Of a stretch of 64,000 nt of DNA, positions 921 to 18,786 are shown piece after piece. Position 1 is the stretch's first letter. Every line of letters starts with the position of its first letter. The translations under genes and the position numbers were made by a program. Under the pieces are notes generated by a model that saw nothing but the letters and a program-made list of their open reading frames with translations, made no database searches and was not told the DNA's origin. Source of the stretch: Paracoccaceae bacterium (GTDB lineage: Bacteria > Pseudomonadota > Alphaproteobacteria > Rhodobacterales > Rhodobacteraceae). The DNA lies in the NCBI GenBank assembly GCA_017854585.1, contig JAFMHK010000002.1, positions 1 to 64,000 of the forward strand. Direction: 5' to 3'.

Positions 921-2438
921 TCACAAATCCATCAACAACCGCCGTGGATCCTCCAGTGCCTCTTTTACGCGCACAAGGAACGTGACCGCGCCTTTGCCGT
1001 CGACGATACGGTGGTCGTAGGACAGCGCCAGATACATCATCGGGCGGATCACGACCTGACCGTTGATCGCCATCGGGCGGTCCTGAATCTTGTGCATGCC
1101 AAGGATGCCCGATTGCGGCGGGTTCAGGATGGGCGAGGACATCAGCGAGCCATAGACGCCACCATTGGAGATGGTGAAAGTGCCACCCTGCATCTCGGCC
1201 ATCGACAGTTTGCCATCGCGGGCGCGACGGCCCTTTTCGGCGATGGCCTTTTCGATCTCGGCAAAGCTGAGGCGGTCGGCATCGCGGATCACCGGGACCA
1301 CAAGGCCGGAGGGCGTGCCCGCAGCGATGCCCATATGCACGAAGTTCTTATAGACGACATCGGTGCCGTCGATCTCGGCGTTGACCTCGGGGACTTCGCG
1401 CAGCGCATGGCAGCAGGCCTTGGTGAAGAAGGACATGAAGCCAAGCTTCACACCGTGCTTCTTCTCGAACAGGTCTTTGTATTCGTTCCGCAGGGCCATC
1501 ACCTCGGTCATGTCGACCTCGTTATAGGTGGTCAGCATCGCGGCGGTGTTCTGGCTGTCTTTCAGGCGTCTGGCGATGGTCTGGCGCAGACGGGTCATCT
1601 TGACCCGTTCTTCGCGCGCGGCATCGTCGGCGGGCACCGGGGCACGCGGGGCTGCGGCGGTCGCCACCGGGGCCGCAACTGCGGCGGCGGCTGCGGGCGC
1701 GGTTGCGGCCTTCATCACATCTTCCTTCATGATCCGGCCATCGCGGCCAGTGCCCTGAACCTGATCGGGGCTAAGGCCTTTTTCAGCCATCAGTTTCTTG
1801 GCGGACGGCGCATCTTCGCCGGTGTGGCCTGTCGCAGCGGACGGTGCTGCGGCGGCGGTTGGCGCCGCTTGTTCCGCCGGGGCGGAGGCTGCAACGCTGC
1901 CACCGATCACAGCCAGCGTTGCGCTGGCATCGACCGTTGTCCCTTCGGGCGCGAGGATTTCGCTCAGCACGCCGGCGGCGGGGGCGGGAACCTCGACGCT
2001 GACCTTGTCAGTCTCAAGTTCGCACAGCATTTCGTCCTGCGCGACGGTATCGCCAACCTTCTTGAACCAAGTGGAGACGGTGGCCTCGGTCACGCTTTCG
2101 CCAAGGGTGGGAACCATCACATTCACGACGTCGCCGCCGGTGCTTTTGGCGGGAGCCGCCGGGCTTGCCGCCTTGGAGGCGGCGGGCGCCGCCGATGCGG
2201 CCCCTGCGGTCAGCGTGGCCAGCAATGCATCGACACCGACGGTTTCACCTTCGGCGGCGACGATTTCGCCCAAGGTGCCAGCGGCGGGCGACGGCACTTC
2301 GACGGTGACCTTGTCGGTCTCCAACTCACACAGCATTTCATCGACCGCGACGGCGTCACCGGGTTTCTTGAACCATGTTGCGACCGTCGCCTCGGTGACG
2401 CTTTCGCCCAATGTGGGAACGCGAACTTCTACAGACAT
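921..2438 (-). CDS. sucB: Dihydrolipoyl succinyltransferase, E2 of 2-oxoglutarate dehydrogenase, with two lipoyl domains
   Basis: 505 residues. E2 core of the 2-oxoglutarate dehydrogenase complex, transferring the succinyl group from the E1-bound intermediate to CoA. Two lipoyl domains are visible in tandem (about residues 2-77 and 104-179), each with ELETDKV around the lipoylated lysine (Lys43 and Lys145), joined by Ala/Pro/Ser-rich linkers. An E1/E3-binding segment ([10 protein letters not shown] to GRIMKEDV) and a C-terminal catalytic domain ending in DHRIVDG (His476, Asp480) follow. E. coli SucB has only one lipoyl domain. The ATG at 2438 is preceded by GAAGGA formed by the last codons of sucA; an upstream in-frame start at 2453 would overlap sucA and lacks a better ribosome site. 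The E3 gene is not in the window. Confidence 0.97.
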
Positions 2439-2442
2439 TGTA

Positions 2443-5406
2443 TTATCCTTCAATCGTCAGCGCGTCGTTCACGAGCGCGGCTTGTTGTGCTTTGTGCTGG
2501 CTGGCAAGGCCCGTCGCAGGCGAAGCCGAAGCAGGCCGCCCAACGTAGGACGGGCGTTTCCGCTTTGCCTTGAGGCGGGTCAGAACCCATTCGATATTGG
2601 GCTCGATAAAGGTCCACCCACCTTGGTTCTTGGGCTCTTCCTGACACCAGACCATGTCGGCCTGCTTGAACCGCTCCAATTCCTTGGTGAGGCTCAATGC
2701 GGGGAATGGATAGAACTGTTCGACCCGCAGGATGTAGATGTCGTCGATCCCCCGCGCATCGCGTTCTTCGAGAAGATCGAAATAGACCTTGCCGGAACAC
2801 ATGACGACCCGCTTGATCTTTTCATCGGCCACCAGCGTCGTGTCGGAATTACCCTTTTGCGCATCATCCCACAGCACCCGGTGGAAGCTTGAGCCGGGCA
2901 GGAAATCGGCCGCTTCGGATACCGCAAGCTTGTGTCGCAACAAGGACTTGGGTGTCATCAAGATCAGCGGTTTGCGGAAGCTGCGGTGAATCTGACGGCG
3001 CAGGATGTGGAAGTAGTTGGCCGGTGTGGTGCAGTTCGCAACGATCCAGTTATCTTGCCCGCACTGCTGCAAGAAGCGCTCAAGCCGGGCGCTGGAATGC
3101 TCGGGGCCCTGCCCCTCATAGCCATGCGGCAGGAGGCAAACCAGACCCGACATACGCAGCCATTTCGACTCGCCCGAACTGACGAATTGGTCGAACATGA
3201 TCTGCGCGCCGTTGGCAAAATCGCCGAACTGCGCCTCCCACAGGGTCAATGCGTTGGGCTCGGCCAGCGAATATCCGTATTCGAAACCCAGCACCGCATA
3301 TTCCGACAGCATCGAATCGATGACCTCGTATTGCGCCTGCCCCTCGCGGACACTGTTCAGCGGGTAATACCGATCCTCGGTCTCCTGATTGACAAGAGCG
3401 GAATGGCGCTGACTGAAGGTGCCGCGGGTGCTGTCCTGACCGGACAGCCGCACCGGATATCCTTCGGTCAAAAGGCTGCCAAAAGCCATCGCCTCGCCGG
3501 TTGCCCAATCGAATCCCTTGCCGGTCGCGAACATCTCGGCCTTGGTTTCCAGCAGGCGCGCGACGGTCTTGTGCAGCGGAAAGCCTTCCGGTGCAGTGGT
3601 CAGGGCGCGCCGCAGATCATCCATCGTCTCGCGTTTGATCGAGGTCTTGCCACGCTGGTATTTCGACTGATCGCGGCGGTCCAGATGGCTCCACCGGCCA
3701 TCCAGCCAATCAGCCTTGTTGGGGCGGTATTCCTTTCCGGCCTCGAACTCGGCATTCAAATGGGCCTGGAAGGCGGCCTTCATGTCCTCGATCTCGCCCT
3801 CGGGGATAAGACCGTCCTTGACCAACCGTTCGGTGTAAAGCTGAAGCGTCGTCTTCTGCTTCTTGATCTTGTTATACATGATTGGGTTGGTGAACATGGG
3901 CTCGTCGCCCTCGTTGTGGCCAAACCGACGATAGCAGAAGATATCCAGCACGACGTCCTTGCCGAACTTCTGGCGGAACTCGGTCGCAACCTTGGCGGCA
4001 TGCACCACCGCTTCGGGGTCATCGCCGTTCACGTGGAAGATCGGCGCCTCGACCATCAAGGCGATATCCGTGGGATAGGGGCTGGACCGGCTGAAGTGCG
4101 GGGCCGTGGTGAACCCGATCTGGTTATTCACGATGATGTGCATCGTGCCACCTGTGCGGTGTCCGCGCAAACCCGACAGGCCGAAACCCTCGGCAACGAC
4201 GCCCTGACCGGCAAACGCGGCATCGCCATGCAGCAAGATCGCCATCACCTGCTGGCGCTGACGATCGCCGTATTGGTCTTGCTTGGCGCGCACTTTGCCA
4301 AGCACCACGGGGTTGACCGCCTCAAGGTGCGAAGGATTCGCCGTAAGCGAAAGGTGCACGGTATTGCCGTCAAATTCCCGGTCCGACGATGCGCCGAGGT
4401 GGTATTTCACGTCGCCCGAACCATCCACGTCTTCCGGCTTGAAGCTTCCGCCCTGAAATTCGTTGAAGATCGCGCGATAGGGTTTGGACATCACGTTTGC
4501 CAAGACCGACAGGCGGCCCCGATGCGGCATCCCGATCACGATTTCCCGCATGCCCAGCGCGCCACCGCGCTTGATGATCTGTTCCATCGCTGGGATCAGC
4601 GCCTCGCCACCATCAAGGCCGAACCGCTTGGTCCCCATATACTTGACGTGAAGGAATTTTTCGAAGCCTTCGGCCTCGACCAGCTTGTTCAGGATCGCCT
4701 TGCGCCCTTCGCGCGTGAACTGGATTTCCTTGCCATACCCCTCGATCCGCTCTTTCAGCCACGATGCCTCGTCGGGGTTGGAGATATGCATGTATTGCAA
4801 GGCGAACGTGCCGCAATACGTGCGCTGCACGATCTCCATGATCTGCCGCATGGAGGCCATTTGCAGCCCCAGAACATTATCGATGAATATCGGGCGGTCC
4901 ATGTCGGCATCGGTGAAGCCATAGGATTTCGGATCAAGCTCAGGGTGCACGGTCTGATCGCGCATCCCCAGCGGGTCCAGATCGGCCACCAGATGGCCCC
5001 GGATCCGGTAGGCGCGAATGATCATCAGCGCGCGGATGCTGTCCAGAACCGCGCGCTTCACCTGCGCATCGGTGATCTCCACGCCCTTCTCGGCGGCCTT
5101 GTCCTTGATCTTGCGTCCCGCGCCGTCGATCTCGGCGGCGGCTGCGGGCCATTCACCCGTCAGCGCATTGGTCAGGTCATCGTGCGGAACGGGCGGCCAA
5201 TCGGCCCGTGCCCACGAAGGGCCCGCAGCTTCGGCCTGCGCATCGCCGGGGGCGTCGCCGAGGGCCGCGAAGAAATCGCGCCACGCTTGGTCGACCGCGT
5301 TCGGGTCCTTGGCATACTGGGCATAGAGTTGCTCCAGATATTCCGCATTATGCCCCTGCATGAAGCTCGAGGCGTGGAACTGATCGTTCGGGCTCTGGTC
5401 GGTCAT
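2443..5406 (-). CDS. sucA: 2-oxoglutarate dehydrogenase E1 component
   Basis: 987 residues, the usual length for OdhA/SucA. It decarboxylates 2-oxoglutarate with thiamine diphosphate and passes succinyl to the lipoyl groups of SucB. The N-terminus has the peripheral E1 segment ([16 protein letters not shown]); the thiamine-binding motif is [10 protein letters not shown] followed by [10 protein letters not shown]; the transketolase-like pyrimidine domain contains FEYGYS and [13 protein letters not shown]; and the C-terminus has [12 protein letters not shown]. The start at 5406 has AAGGACC upstream. It lies 4 bp before sucB and 57 bp after an unknown secreted-protein gene, as part of the mdh-suc cluster on the minus strand. 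Confidence 0.98.
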
Positions 5407-5463: not shown

Positions 5464-6072
5464 TCATTGTTGAGCGGTCTCAAGTCGTTCGTAACGGAAG
5501 CTGTCGGTCAGCGGCGTGAGCGCAGTCGGAACTCGCGACCAGACCATGTTTTCGGAATACGTGATGTCGTCGGCGATGTTGCTGACGGATCCTTGAAACA
5601 GCAGCACTTCGCGCCCCATCAGGGGCGTCACTTGCTGCCCGCCGAAGTCCTGCCAATAACCCGCGATCTCATCGGTCGGGGGGGCGGCGACCAGACAGGT
5701 CAGATGTTCAAGATCAGTGCCCGGCTGCAGGTTGACACCGACCAGAAGGATGGCGGCCCCCTGCACATACATCTGCAAAACGTCGCCCGTGACGGCATCG
5801 GCCAAAGCCGCGCCGATTTGCGGCAACAACGCCTGCATATCCGTCGCGGCCATGTCGGCGTTAAAGCCCGGGCCGATGCTACCCGCAATCAGGGCGATCT
5901 GACCTGCGTCAGGATTCTCTACCGGGGTCCAGCCGCTGAGCGGCAGCAGGTCGAGTTTTTCTAGTCCGGTCGTCATCGGGTCGTTGCACAGGTCGACAGC
6001 GGACGTCAGCGATTGCGCCGACGCCACCATCGGAAGGCCAATCAGGGCCACGGTTGCAATGAGCCGGAGCAT
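5464..6072 (-). CDS. Secreted protein of unknown function between sucD and sucA
   Basis: 202 residues starting [20 protein letters not shown], a clear signal peptide with cleavage near residue 19, so the mature protein is expected in the periplasm. The mature part contains two cysteines (VDLCNDP and LTCLVAAP), compatible with a disulfide. I recognise no enzyme motif. The ATG at 6072 overlaps the sucD stop by one base (TGATG), so translation is coupled to sucD, and the gene is followed by sucA. An upstream in-frame extension to 6264 exists but lies inside sucD and would bury the signal peptide. A conserved place inside a TCA operon suggests only co-expression; the role is unknown. Confidence 0.85.
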   Translation of the reverse strand: MLRLIATVALIGLPMVASAQSLTSAVDLCNDPMTTGLEKLDLLPLSGWTPVENPDAGQIALIAGSIGPGFNADMAATDMQALLPQIGAALADAVTGDVLQMYVQGAAILLVGVNLQPGTDLEHLTCLVAAPPTDEIAGYWQDFGGQQVTPLMGREVLLFQGSVSNIADDITYSENMVWSRVPTALTPLTDSFRYERLETAQQ

Positions 6073-6953
6073 CAGCCGATTGCCTTCAACACTGCCTCGC
6101 CCAGACCTGCGGGGCTTTCGGCAACCACGATGCCTGCGGCCTTCATCGCTTCGATCTTCGATTCCGCGTCGCCTTTGCCGCCCGCAACAATTGCACCGGC
6201 ATGGCCCATACGGCGGCCCGGAGGTGCGGTGCGCCCTGCAATGAAGCCGGCGGTGGGCTTCCAACGTCCGCGCTTTTTCTCATCGGCAAGGAATTGTGCG
6301 GCCTCTTCTTCGGCAGAGCCGCCGATTTCGCCGATCATGATGATTGAATGTGTTTCGTCATCGGCCAGAAACCATTCCAGCACGTCGATATGTTCGGTGC
6401 CTTTGATCGGGTCGCCGCCGATACCGACGCAGGTCGATTGGCCCAGACCAACGTCCGATGTCTGTTTCACCGCTTCGTAGGTGAGCGTACCCGAGCGGGA
6501 CACGACGCCGACCGAGCCGCGACGGTGGATATGGCCCGGCATGATGCCGATCTTGCAGGCGTCGGGCGTGATGACACCGGGGCAGTTCGGCCCGATCAGG
6601 GTGGACTTGGACCCTTCCAGCGCCCGCTTGACCTTCATCATGTCCAGCACCGGGATACCTTCGGTGATGCACACGATCAGTTCCATCTCGGCGTCGATCG
6701 CCTCGAGGATGCTGTCGGCGGCGAAGGGTGGCGGCACATAGATGACGGTCGCGTTCGCTTCGGTCACATGTTTCGCCTCGTGGACCGAGTTGAATACCGG
6801 CAGGTCCAGATGGGTCATTCCGCCCTTGCCCGGCGTCACACCGCCAACCATCTTGGTGCCATAGGCGATGGCCTGTTCCGAATGGAACGTGCCCTGCGAG
6901 CCGGTGAAGCCCTGACAGATCACCTTGGTGTTTTCGTTCACGAGTACGGCCAT
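6072..6953 (-). CDS. sucD: Succinyl-CoA ligase (ADP-forming) alpha subunit
   Basis: 293 residues. Catalyses, with SucC, succinyl-CoA + ADP + Pi = succinate + ATP + CoA. Visible features are the CoA-binding Rossmann start [18 protein letters not shown], the loop GGVTPGKGG, the conserved PNCPGVITP and the active-site phosphohistidine loop [15 protein letters not shown] near the C-terminus. Length and motifs are those of the family. Unusually, sucC and sucD are separated by an unrelated gene (6978-7574), while the downstream secreted protein overlaps its stop codon. Confidence 0.98.
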
Positions 6954-7628: not shown

Positions 7629-8822
7629 TCAGCCCCTGACCGCCGCCACGATCTTCTCGGCGCCGTCCTTGAGGTCGTCGGCGGCGATCACGTCGAGGCC
7701 AGAGTTGCGGATGATCTCTTTGCCCTTTTCCACGTTCGTGCCTTCCAGCCGCACGACCAGCGGCACTTTCAGCCCGACTTCCTTGACGGCCTCGATCACG
7801 CCTTCGGCGATGATGTCGCAGCGCATGATGCCACCGAAGATGTTGACGAGGATGCCCTTCACCTGCGGGTCGCTGGTGATGATCTTGAAGGCTTCGGTCA
7901 CCTTTTCCTTAGTCGCGCCACCGCCCACGTCCAGAAAGTTGGCAGGCTCGGACCCATAGAGCTTGATGATGTCCATTGTCGCCATCGCCAGACCGGCACC
8001 ATTGACCATGCAGCCGATCTCACCATCCAGCGCGATGTAGTTCAGGTCATACTTCGATGCGGCCAGTTCCTTGGGGTCTTCCTCGGTCTCGTCGCGCAGG
8101 GCGGCAATATCGGCGTGGCGGTAGATGGCGTTGCCGTCAAAGCTGACCTTGGCATCCAGCACTTTCAGATCACCGCTGTCGGTCACGATCAGCGGATTGA
8201 TCTCCAGCATCTCCATGTCCTTGTCGGTGAACGCCTGAAAAAGCTGCCCCATCAACTTGACGCATTGCTTGACCTGCGGGCCTTCAAGCCCCAGCGCAAA
8301 GGCAACGCGGCGACCGTGAAAGCCCTGATAGCCGGTGGCGGGATCCACGCTGAATGACAGGATCTTTTCGGGGGTAGCGGCGGCGACCTCTTCGATGTCC
8401 ATGCCGCCCTCGGTCGAGCAGACAAAGGAAATGCGGCTGGTCTGGCGATCAACCAGAAGTGCCAGATACATTTCTGTCCGGATGCCGCTGCCATCCTCGA
8501 TGTAGATCCGGTTGACCTGCTTGCCCGCTGGCCCGGTCTGGTGGGTCACAAGCGTGCGGCCTAGCATCTTCTTGGCTTCGGTCGCGGCCTCTTCCACCGA
8601 TTTGGTCAGGCGCACACCGCCCTTGTCGCCGGCGTCGGCCTCCTTGAAATGACCTTTGCCGCGCCCGCCGGCGTGGATCTGTGCCTTCACGACCCAAAGC
8701 GGCCCGTCCATCTCGCTGGCGGCTGTCTTGGCGTCTTCGGCCTTCATGACCACCCGGCCATCGCTGACCGGCGCCCCGTACTGACGAAGCAATGCCTTGG
8801 CCTGATACTCATGAATGTTCAT
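7629..8822 (-). CDS. sucC: Succinyl-CoA ligase (ADP-forming) beta subunit
   Basis: 397 residues, family-typical. An N-terminal ATP-grasp domain begins [16 protein letters not shown] and includes [14 protein letters not shown] and MEINPLIVT with downstream LDAKVSFD; the C-terminal ligase domain contains NFLDVGGGA and [14 protein letters not shown]. It binds the nucleotide and succinate for the SucCD enzyme. It is the first suc gene after a 200-bp gap holding the paired TGTGATCACA palindromes (8929-8965), so it is the likely promoter-proximal gene of the suc transcript. Confidence 0.98.
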
Positions 8823-8885
8823 GAAACTGTCCCGTCTCTTGGTGGTGTTTCATCTCTCAAAGCACAACAAGAGGGTCCAATAAAA

Positions 8886-8905
8886 CGGTATTCTGCCGCA
8901 TACCG
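8886..8905 (-). promoter_or_regulatory. CGGTAT-N8-ATACCG inverted repeat upstream of sucC
   Basis: Perfect 6-bp arms (8886-8891 and 8900-8905) in the gap between the paired palindromes and the sucC start, 64 bp upstream of sucC. It could be a second operator or chance; no regulator is proposed. Confidence 0.3.
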
Positions 8906-8928
8906 GAGTGTTAGCGCAAAAAAGCGAC

Positions 8929-8965
8929 ATTTGTGATCACAGTCCAAAAAAGTGTGATCACAAAT
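8929..8965 (-). promoter_or_regulatory. Paired TGTGATCACA palindromes upstream of the suc operon
   Basis: Two identical self-complementary boxes TGTGATCACA at 8932-8941 and 8953-8962, centres 21 bp apart (two helical turns); the flanks extend the symmetry to ATTTGTGATCACA and its complement. The near edge is 110 bp from the sucC start. An equivalent pair with the same 21-bp spacing stands upstream of sdhC (14600-14630). The box resembles GntR-family operators more than CRP sites, which need a 6-bp spacer. The R. sphaeroides GntR regulator AkgR is reported to activate TCA-cycle genes and is the obvious candidate, but I could not compare with its published motif. Confidence 0.75.
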
Positions 8966-14599: not shown

Positions 14600-14630
14600 C
14601 GTGATCACAGCCTGAAATCATGTGATCACA
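14600..14630 (+). promoter_or_regulatory. Paired palindromes upstream of the sdh operon
   Basis: Boxes CGTGATCACA (14600-14609) and TGTGATCACA (14621-14630), centres exactly 21 bp apart, the same arrangement as upstream of sucC. The pair starts 10 bp after the mch stop and ends 135 bp before sdhC. A weak promoter GTGACA (14688-14693) / TATTCA (14710-14715), 16-bp spacer, lies downstream; if it is real, the boxes would sit near -95 and -116, an activator-compatible place. Confidence 0.75.
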
Positions 14631-14764: not shown

Positions 14765-15148
14765 ATGGCCGACGTGAACCGGGGCAACCGGCCCCTCTCG
14801 CCGCATCTGCAGATTTATCGTCCGCAGCTCAATTCGATCACATCGATCCTCAACCGCATTACCGGCAACGCCTTGTTGCTGGGGGCCTTGCTGATTGTCT
14901 GGTGGCTGATCGCCGCCGCGACCGGCCCGGAATACTTTGCAATGGCCGATGGCATGCTGACCTCGGTCCTTGGCGATCTGGTCATGCTGGGATCGCTTTG
15001 GGCGCTTTGGTATCATGCGCTTGGCGGCATCCGGCACCTGATCTGGGATACCGGGCGCGGCCTTGACGCGGACACAGCCGACAAGATGGGCTGGGGAATC
15101 ATCATCGGGTCGGTCGCACTGACCTTCCTGACCGTGATCGCAATTTAG
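14765..15148 (+). CDS. sdhC: Succinate dehydrogenase cytochrome b556 subunit
   Basis: 127 residues, three membrane helices. Membrane anchor of complex II that binds haem b and quinone. Family signatures are RPLSPHLQIYRPQLNSITS near the N-terminus (quinone site Ser) and WYHALGGIRHLIWD with the haem-ligand histidine. The ATG at 14765 follows AAAGGG; a GTG at 14756 would add three residues. First gene of the sdh operon, 11 bp before sdhD. Confidence 0.96.
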   Translation: MADVNRGNRPLSPHLQIYRPQLNSITSILNRITGNALLLGALLIVWWLIAAATGPEYFAMADGMLTSVLGDLVMLGSLWALWYHALGGIRHLIWDTGRGLDADTADKMGWGIIIGSVALTFLTVIAI

Positions 15149-15159
15149 GGGGCACGACG

Positions 15160-15531
15160 ATGGCATATCTGACCGACCGCAAACGCGTCGAAGGGCTGGG
15201 TTCCGCGAAATCCGGCACCCATCACTTCTGGTCCATGACCGTGACATCCGCGGCGCTTCTGATCCTGACGCCGCTGTTCGTATTCAGCTTTGGCCCCTTG
15301 TTGGGCGAACCGCATGCTGACGTGGTCGCGGCGCTGTCGCATCCGCTCCGCGCCATCATCGCCGCGCTGATGATCGTGGTCAGCTTTCACCATTTCCGCT
15401 TGGGCGTGACGACCCTGATCGAGGATTACGTCGGCGGCCAGGCACGCAAGATAGCAATCATCGCAATGATCATCGTCAGCTATGGATTGATGGCCGCCGG
15501 CCTCATCGCTCTCGCCCAAATCGCGCTATAA
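15160..15531 (+). CDS. sdhD: Succinate dehydrogenase membrane anchor subunit
   Basis: 123 residues with three membrane helices; begins MAYLTDRKRVEGLGSAKSGT and carries SFHHFRLGVTTLIEDYV, the conserved helix-II histidine region that with SdhC holds haem b. Partner of SdhC in complex II. It lies between sdhC (11 bp) and sdhA (14 bp). Confidence 0.95.
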   Translation: MAYLTDRKRVEGLGSAKSGTHHFWSMTVTSAALLILTPLFVFSFGPLLGEPHADVVAALSHPLRAIIAALMIVVSFHHFRLGVTTLIEDYVGGQARKIAIIAMIIVSYGLMAAGLIALAQIAL

Positions 15532-15545
15532 GGTAGGTTACCCCG

Positions 15546-17369
15546 ATGAAAGACATGACCAATTCCAACGCTTATGACATCACCTATCACACCTATGACG
15601 TGGTGGTTGTGGGCGCTGGCGGCTCGGGCCTGCGCGCGACGCTTGGCATGGCCGAACAGGGGCTCAAGACCGCCTGCGTGACCAAGGTGTTCCCGACGCG
15701 GTCGCATACCGTTGCGGCGCAAGGCGGCATCGCGGCCAGCCTTGGCAACATGGGGCCGGATCACTGGCACTGGCACATGTATGACACGGTCAAGGGTTCT
15801 GACTGGCTGGGCGATACCGACGCGATGGAATATCTGGCCCGCGAGGCCCCCAAGGCGGTCTACGAACTGGAACATTACGGGGTTCCGTTTTCCCGGACGG
15901 AAGATGGCAACATCTATCAGCGTCCTTTTGGCGGTCACACGACGCAGTTTGGCGAAGGCCCCCCCGTGCAGCGCACCTGCGCCGCCGCAGACCGGACCGG
16001 CCATGCCATCCTGCACACGCTTTATGGCCAGTCGCTGAAGCATAACGCGGAATTCTACATCGAATATTTCGCGACCGACCTGATCATGTCCGATGATGGC
16101 CAGTGTCAGGGCGTGGTGGCATGGAAGCTGGATGACGGCACCATGCATGTGTTCAACGCCAAGATGGTCGTGCTGGCCACCGGCGGCTATGGCCGGGCCT
16201 ATTTCTCGGCCACGTCGGCCCATACCTGCACCGGTGACGGCGGCGGCATGGTCGCACGGCAGGGCCTGCCCCTGCAGGATATGGAATTCGTGCAATTCCA
16301 CCCGACCGGCATCTACGGCGCGGGCTGCCTGATCACCGAAGGGGCGCGTGGCGAAGGCGGATACCTGACCAATTCCGAAGGCGAGCGGTTCATGGAACGC
16401 TACGCGCCGACCTACAAGGATCTTGCGTCTCGCGATGTGGTGTCGCGCTGCATGACGATGGAGATCCGCGAAGGCCGCGGCGTTGGTCCGAACAAGGACC
16501 ATATCCACCTGCACCTGAACCACCTGCCACCAGAGACGTTGAACCTGCGCCTGCCGGGCATCAGCGAAAGCGCCCGGATCTTCGCCGGCGTCGACCTGAC
16601 CAAGGAACCCATCCCGGTTCTGCCGACGGTGCATTACAACATGGGCGGCATCCCCACGAACTATTGGGGCGAAGTCTTGAACCCCACCGCCAAGAACCCC
16701 GATGCGACCGTGCCGGGCCTGATGGCCGTGGGCGAGGCTGGGTGTGCATCGGTGCACGGGGCCAACCGCCTTGGCTCCAACAGCCTGATCGACCTTGTGG
16801 TGTTCGGTCGCGCCGCCGCCATCAAGGCTGGCAAGATCGTCGACCCCGACAGCGCGAACCCCGCCCTGAACCAAGCCAGCCTCGACATGGCGATCAGCCG
16901 GTTTGACGCGATTCGGTATGCCAATGGCGGCACCCCCACCGCTGAGTTGCGGCTGGAGATGCAACAGACCATGCAGGCCGATGCTGCCGTCTTCCGCACC
17001 GACAAGACCTTGGCGGAAGGCGCGGAAAAGATGGCGAACGTGGCCAGCAAGATCAGCGATCTGCACGTGACCGATCGCAGCCTGATCTGGAACAGCGACC
17101 TGATGGAAACGCTGGAACTGACCAACCTGATGCCCAATGCACTGGCCACCATCGTCGCAGCCGAGGCGCGCAAGGAAAGCCGTGGCGCCCACGCGCACGA
17201 AGATTACCCGGATCGGGACGACGTGAACTGGCGCAAGCACAGCCTTGCCACCGTCGATGGCCACAAGACCGACCTGTCGTATCGCCCCGTCCACCTGAAC
17301 CCGTTGATGGGCCACAACGAGGGTGGCATCGACATGGACAGGATCAAGCCGAAGGCGCGCGTCTATTGA
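15546..17369 (+). CDS. sdhA: Succinate dehydrogenase flavoprotein subunit
   Basis: 607 residues. Oxidises succinate to fumarate using covalent FAD. Visible: Rossmann [13 protein letters not shown], the FAD-linking SHTVAAQGG (His54), HPTGIYGAG, the catalytic arginine region and the C-terminal R-rich [12 protein letters not shown] segment. AAGGTAGG precedes the ATG at 15546. The TGA stop overlaps the TTG start of the first operon lipoprotein, so sdhA and sdhB are separated by two small lipoprotein genes instead of being adjacent. Confidence 0.98.
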
Positions 17370-18006: not shown

Positions 18007-18786
18007 ATGGTTGAACTTGCCCTGCCGAAAAACTCCCGCATGAAGACGGGGAAAAGCTGGCCGAAACCCGACGGCGCCACCAACCTGCGCAAGTTTCAGG
18101 TCTATCGCTGGAACCCCGACGATGGTGAGAACCCGCGCGTCGATACCTATTGGGTCGATATGGACACCTGCGGCCCAATGGTTCTGGACGCCCTGATCAA
18201 GATCAAGAACGAGATTGATCCGACCCTGACCTTCCGCCGGTCCTGCCGCGAGGGGATCTGCGGATCGTGCGCCATGAATATCGACGGCATCAACACGCTG
18301 GCCTGCATCTACGGCATGGATGAAGTGAAGGGCGACGTCAAAATCTACCCCCTGCCCCACATGCCTGTGGTCAAGGATCTGATCCCCGATCTGACCCATT
18401 TCTATGCGCAGCACGCCTCCATCATGCCGTGGCTGGAAACCAAGACCCAAAAGCCGGAACATGAGTGGAAGCAATCCATCGATGACCGTGAAAAGCTGGA
18501 TGGTCTCTACGAATGCGTGATGTGCGCGTGTTGTTCCACGTCCTGCCCGTCCTACTGGTGGAACGGCGATCGCTACCTTGGGCCCGCCGCCCTGCTACAC
18601 GCCTACCGCTGGATCATCGACAGCCGCGATGAAGCGACAGGCGAGCGTCTGGACGAGCTGGAAGATCCCTTCAAGCTTTACCGCTGCCACACCATCATGA
18701 ACTGCACCAAGACCTGCCCCAAGGGTCTGAACCCGGCCAAGGCGATCGCGTCGATCAAGAAGATGATGGTCGAACGGCAGGTTTGA
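18007..18786 (+). CDS. sdhB: Succinate dehydrogenase iron-sulfur subunit
   Basis: 259 residues. Carries electrons from SdhA to quinone. All three clusters are visible: the 2Fe-2S ligands in [16 protein letters not shown] with a later LAC, the 4Fe-4S set [16 protein letters not shown], and the 3Fe-4S set [17 protein letters not shown]. Start ATG 18007 with GGAGAACGAG upstream. Last gene of the sdh operon. Confidence 0.98.

Follow-up and report, generated by a model that had tools for sequence, protein, structure and literature searches.

Which protein reads the paired palindromes that lie upstream of the suc and sdh operons of this Paracoccaceae genome, and does the arrangement belong to a regulatory system that is already known? 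The window, by which the whole 64,000-nucleotide stretch under study is meant, holds two tandem pairs of TGTGATCACA, one ahead of sucCDAB and the other ahead of sdhCDAB. When the coordinates were re-read, all four boxes reported in a preliminary description of this DNA were confirmed, together with the single changed base (C-for-T) by which the box at 14600 differs from TGTGATCACA. The boxes are as follows.

8932..8941, no strand assigned: putative AkgR box, promoter-proximal member of the suc pair, TGTGATCACA, conserved in relatives
8953..8962, no strand assigned: putative AkgR box, distal member of the suc pair, TGTGATCACA, its centre 21 bp from that of the 8932 box
14600..14609, no strand assigned: putative AkgR box, distal member of the sdh pair, CGTGATCACA with a single changed base
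14621..14630, no strand assigned: putative AkgR box, promoter-proximal member of the sdh pair, TGTGATCACA

Paired boxes and their gene context

The suc pair is intergenic, upstream of sucC and 109 bp from its start codon, and the sdh pair starts nine bases past the stop codon of a MaoC-like gene, with the sdhC start codon approximately 134 bp downstream. The genes of the two operons are listed below; the names of sucC, sucD, sucA, sucB, sdhC, sdhA, and sdhB are each assigned from a match above the curated NCBIfam cut-off.

7629..8822, minus strand: sucC, first gene of the suc operon (NCBIfam NF001913)
6072..6953, minus strand: sucD (NCBIfam TIGR01019)
2443..5406, minus strand: sucA, 2-oxoglutarate dehydrogenase E1 (NCBIfam NF006914)
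921..2453, minus strand: sucB, 2-oxoglutarate dehydrogenase E2 (NCBIfam NF004309)
14765..15148, plus strand: sdhC, first gene of the sdh operon (NCBIfam TIGR02970)
15160..15531, plus strand: sdhD, named by its position between sdhC and sdhA and by its length only
15546..17369, plus strand: sdhA (NCBIfam TIGR01816)
18007..18786, plus strand: sdhB (NCBIfam NF004616)

The suc promoters also carry a second conserved stretch, roughly AAAAACCGTTT, approximately 38-49 bp downstream of the pair (8822-8931 of the window and relatives), and a similar CAAAAAACCGC is found approximately 27-37 bp downstream of the pair in sdh promoters. These stretches may be promoter elements, or another regulator may bind there; when -35/-10 elements were sought at the suc and sdh promoters, no consistent position emerged.

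The exact 10-mer TGTGATCACA occurs four times in the 3.37-Mb source genome, three times in the suc and sdh pairs and once inside a coding sequence on contig C51. A search for the pair at up to three mismatches gave one extra match (contig C26, three mismatches, inside an ORF) and no further convincing pair in the 3.37 Mb, and the reversed-pattern control had no matches in the source genome. The C26 match and the exact box on C51, both within ORFs, were considered as operators and rejected as chance. Other TGTGATCAC sites examined in the genome, in a survey that left out four listed sites (C61, C62 twice, and C63), were mostly within ORFs, and two of them (L190 and L210) had no covering ORF by the filter used. 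The preliminary description had seen no intergenic copy of the box beyond the two pairs, which holds within the window but not for the genome, where a single box precedes a GntR gene on contig C34 and a further one lies in the gap between this gene and lpd.

It had also proposed a scan of the genome and of related Rhodobacteraceae for boxes at 21 bp, and the outcome favours its reading. The pair, at up to one mismatch, is present in 236 of 296 family genomes, normally once or twice per genome, while the reversed-pattern control is present in none of the 296; outside the family but within the class, the pair was found in 1 of 285 genomes. For all 58 pair matches whose flanking genes were identified (46 distinct suc/sdh pair sequences and one before sucA, with some loci overlapping), the pair precedes sucC or sdhC, or sucA in a single genome. 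The distance from pair to sucC is nearly constant in relatives, mostly 107-113 bp. Across pairs, the sequence of the 11-bp spacer is not conserved and the outer flanks TT...AA are favoured, so that the whole site tends to TTTGTGATCACA-N11-TGTGATCACAAA.

A GntR/FCD protein and the AkgR regulon

The source genome contains 14 GntR-domain genes above the Pfam cut-off. One of these, on the minus strand of contig C34 (1658-2308), encodes the putative AkgR, a 217-residue GntR/FCD protein that matches PF00392 and PF07729 and scores below the NCBIfam cut-offs of named families. McbR of Escherichia coli and other GntR/FCD proteins have targets that differ from those of AkgR. They share the domain plan of the C34 protein at low similarity, and McbR (PDB 4p9f) is its best match by sequence among solved structures, with an E of 3.7e-22. 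A CGTGATCACA box is centred 13 bp before the start codon of the C34 gene; in the 300 bp upstream of the other 13 GntR genes, nothing comes closer to the box than two mismatches. In a list of 80 named orthologues that includes none from R. sphaeroides, the box is likewise found upstream of 69, mostly 12-14 bp before the start. The closest named orthologues, those of Roseibacterium/Roseicyclus (L074-L077; 90-92% identity), are without the box before their own gene; the source genome keeps it.

Relatives of the C34 protein lie near the suc/sdh cluster in other genomes. Among the 80 listed named relatives, lpd is convergent to the putative akgR in 17, with the suc genes beyond lpd in most of these. 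In the source assembly, lpd and the putative akgR stand close to the beginning of C34, and base 1 of the window is also base 1 of its own contig, C38; the two contig ends therefore probably belong next to each other. With this join, the start of C34 would adjoin the first base of the window, and the putative akgR would probably lie a few kilobases to its left. A second single CGTGATCACA box is located between the convergent lpd and putative akgR on C34 (L050:961-970).

Co-occurrence of the pair and the regulator was assessed in 80 genomes chosen by pair status, in which "with pair" denotes a strict N11 match or an N10 match with up to three mismatches. An orthologue of the C34 protein (66-81% identity) is present in 52 of 52 genomes with the pair compared to 12 of 28 without it (Fisher p ~1e-9, kinship ignored). 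Ten of these 12 have an N11 pair at up to three mismatches (eight with two and two with three), another (G061) has two exact boxes spaced at 22 bp, and in the last (G200) no pair was detected even at up to three mismatches N11. With mismatches relaxed in this manner, the pair is found in 63 of 64 genomes with the orthologue and in at most 1 of 16 without it, kinship being ignored; three-mismatch matches can be chance, as C26 in the source genome shows, and the one single match of this kind in the 16 genomes looks like chance. Approximately 16 largely complete family genomes (G004, G014, G017, G029, G048, G083, G100, and others) have neither the orthologue nor a convincing pair, which suggests joint loss.

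The lone pair outside the family belongs to a different alphaproteobacterial family (L184, approximately 960-1025) and is flanked on one side by a TonB-receptor-like gene and on the other by a GntR/FCD-like gene, after which comes a short-chain-dehydrogenase-like gene (the receptor and dehydrogenase names were read from translations). Two clear boxes and a third, weaker one stand at about 20-21 bp spacing, and the GntR/FCD-like protein is 30% identical to the C34 protein over 216 amino acids. These boxes are likely a related but separate regulon, and as this pair lies beside another GntR/FCD-like gene, this GntR branch may read the palindrome more generally.

AkgR of Rhodobacter sphaeroides had been named in the preliminary description as a candidate regulator. 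Imam, Noguera and Donohue, in mBio in 2015, reportedly gave this name to RSP_0981 and are said to have shown that it directly activates TCA genes. The GntR protein RSP_0981 is predicted to control succinyl-CoA synthetase, succinate dehydrogenase, and 2-oxoglutarate dehydrogenase, which are the same targets as here (PMC4344238). According to a second source, GTGATCAC occurs among AkgR binding sites (PMC6365646); the same core motif is common to the boxes in this genome, and both regulators are of the GntR family. The comparison with the published motif, as the preliminary description had wished, therefore ends in agreement on the core (PMC6365646). Its suggestion of a common regulator for 2-oxoglutarate dehydrogenase, succinyl-CoA ligase, and succinate dehydrogenase gains support from the predicted targets (PMC4344238) and from the pair before suc and sdh, and its candidate is well supported by the GTGATCAC match, by a pair that tracks one GntR/FCD protein and by the box at that protein's own gene. 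In this genome, boxes with the GTGATCAC core precede both sucCD/2-oxoglutarate dehydrogenase and sdh, and a GntR regulator is linked to these sites; the assignment of the C34 protein as a putative AkgR, matched to RSP_0981 by targets, motif, and GntR family, is well supported. Given the published AkgR targets and the motif match, this is the known AkgR regulon in another genome, a real and well-conserved feature and not a new system.

Compared to the regulon of R. sphaeroides, the arrangement described here has a two-turn tandem pair, family-wide, and one box before the putative akgR. The added detail is the fixed pairing at the targets and the single box before the regulator's gene: in the literature searched, outside which the primary AkgR paper (mBio 2015) fell, no description of a tandem two-turn pair at the targets as against a single akgR box was found. 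A literature search for TGTGATCACA gave nothing bearing on this motif, and one for GTGATCAC with GntR gave PMC6365646 as the sole relevant item. In that source, PS417_07240, a GntR-like regulator of Pseudomonas simiae reported to be 32% identical to AkgR, has the palindrome GTGATCAC conserved 40-47 bp before the start codon; its proposed role is the control of deoxyribonate oxidation in contrast to the TCA cycle here, and the passage on it reports no tandem pairs, unlike the present sites (PMC6365646).

A different regulator, for example one of the CRP/FNR type, could instead read the boxes, with the GntR association being incidental, as the TGTGA/TCACA in the boxes resemble CRP half-sites and RSP_1663 and NtrC are also predicted to act on sdh (PMC4344238). 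However, the half-sites are not separated by a 6-bp spacer, and no CRP analogue is predicted for R. sphaeroides (PMC4344238). Moreover, the box stands before 69 of the 80 listed akgR orthologues, the pair tracks akgR across genomes, and the outlier pair outside the family sits before another GntR, all of which renders this explanation highly improbable compared to AkgR.

Spacing of the boxes and a proposed mode of action

Among exact-box pairs with spacers of 0-42 in 149 genomes, N11 accounts for 101 sites, N10 for 14 sites and all other spacers for 6 sites, so that 115 of the 121 pairs are spaced at 20 or 21 bp. Three of the 6 off-spacing sites are one cluster in one genome, and in one off-spacing pair the centres are 31 bp, or about three turns, apart. 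The spacing of exactly 21 bp given in the preliminary description is correct for both window pairs and too strict for relatives, in which 20 bp also occurs, though less often than 21 bp. The arrangement is that of a tandem operator, with two palindromes integral helical turns apart and a conserved spacing. Two proteins bound to one face of the helix would be expected to hold the spacing at two turns while leaving the spacer sequence free to vary, and the dimer-of-dimers element of the preliminary description would fit these spacing data.

Very probably, AkgR, a GntR-family protein whose effector domain is of the FCD type, has an operator in each pair; cooperating dimers there would activate suc and sdh, and the single box at akgR would serve autorepression. 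One AkgR dimer would read each 10-bp palindrome and, with the boxes 20-21 bp apart, two dimers would lie on the same face of the DNA. These would bind, probably cooperatively, upstream of the suc and sdh promoters and switch both operons on together (activation here being taken from the literature), perhaps in response to a metabolite. By reading the single box approximately 13 bp before its own start codon, AkgR would in turn block its own expression.

Alternatively, the pair could be an RNA hairpin or terminator in which the boxes pair as a 10-bp stem with an 11-nt loop. A hairpin is predicted in both the suc and sdh leaders, the sdh pair comes directly past the stop codon of the upstream gene, and symmetrical double changes occur in some diverged genomes. 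Yet each box is itself a palindrome, which is needless for a hairpin, and the spacing is fixed at 20/21 bp, whereas a loop length should drift. Among single changes, G-U and A-C are equally frequent (6 vs 6), with no strand preference; the akgR box, being single, has no partner for a stem; and no terminator-like site includes the pair. An RNA structure is therefore an extremely improbable explanation of the boxes.

It is unlikely, though less so, that AkgR binds the boxes as independent dimers and that the fixed spacing reflects shared ancestry and not cooperation. The suc and sdh operons are close together and their operators could share a history, but the length of the spacer is 10 or 11 bp across many genera although its sequence is not conserved, and the variant at about three turns also speaks for cooperating dimers.

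For cooperating AkgR dimers, the two kinds of site could amount to a counting code, in which a two-turn pair recruits interacting dimers and activates suc and sdh, while at a single box by the start codon one dimer would repress akgR. This proposal is tentative, and we would give it somewhat less than an even chance. If true, the amounts of three adjacent TCA enzymes would depend on a single, self-limiting regulator in most of the family. The results indicate that the AkgR circuit, which has been investigated in a single model species, is near-universal in this large family, with an operator geometry that is precise and testable. The GntR/FCD family is best known for repressors, and the system offers a test of how a protein of this kind can activate. 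In addition, new genomes can be searched for the regulon by means of the box pair, which is a simple pattern. At one locus upstream of sucC (L056:17557-17608), three boxes are present at 21-bp steps, the third with two changes.
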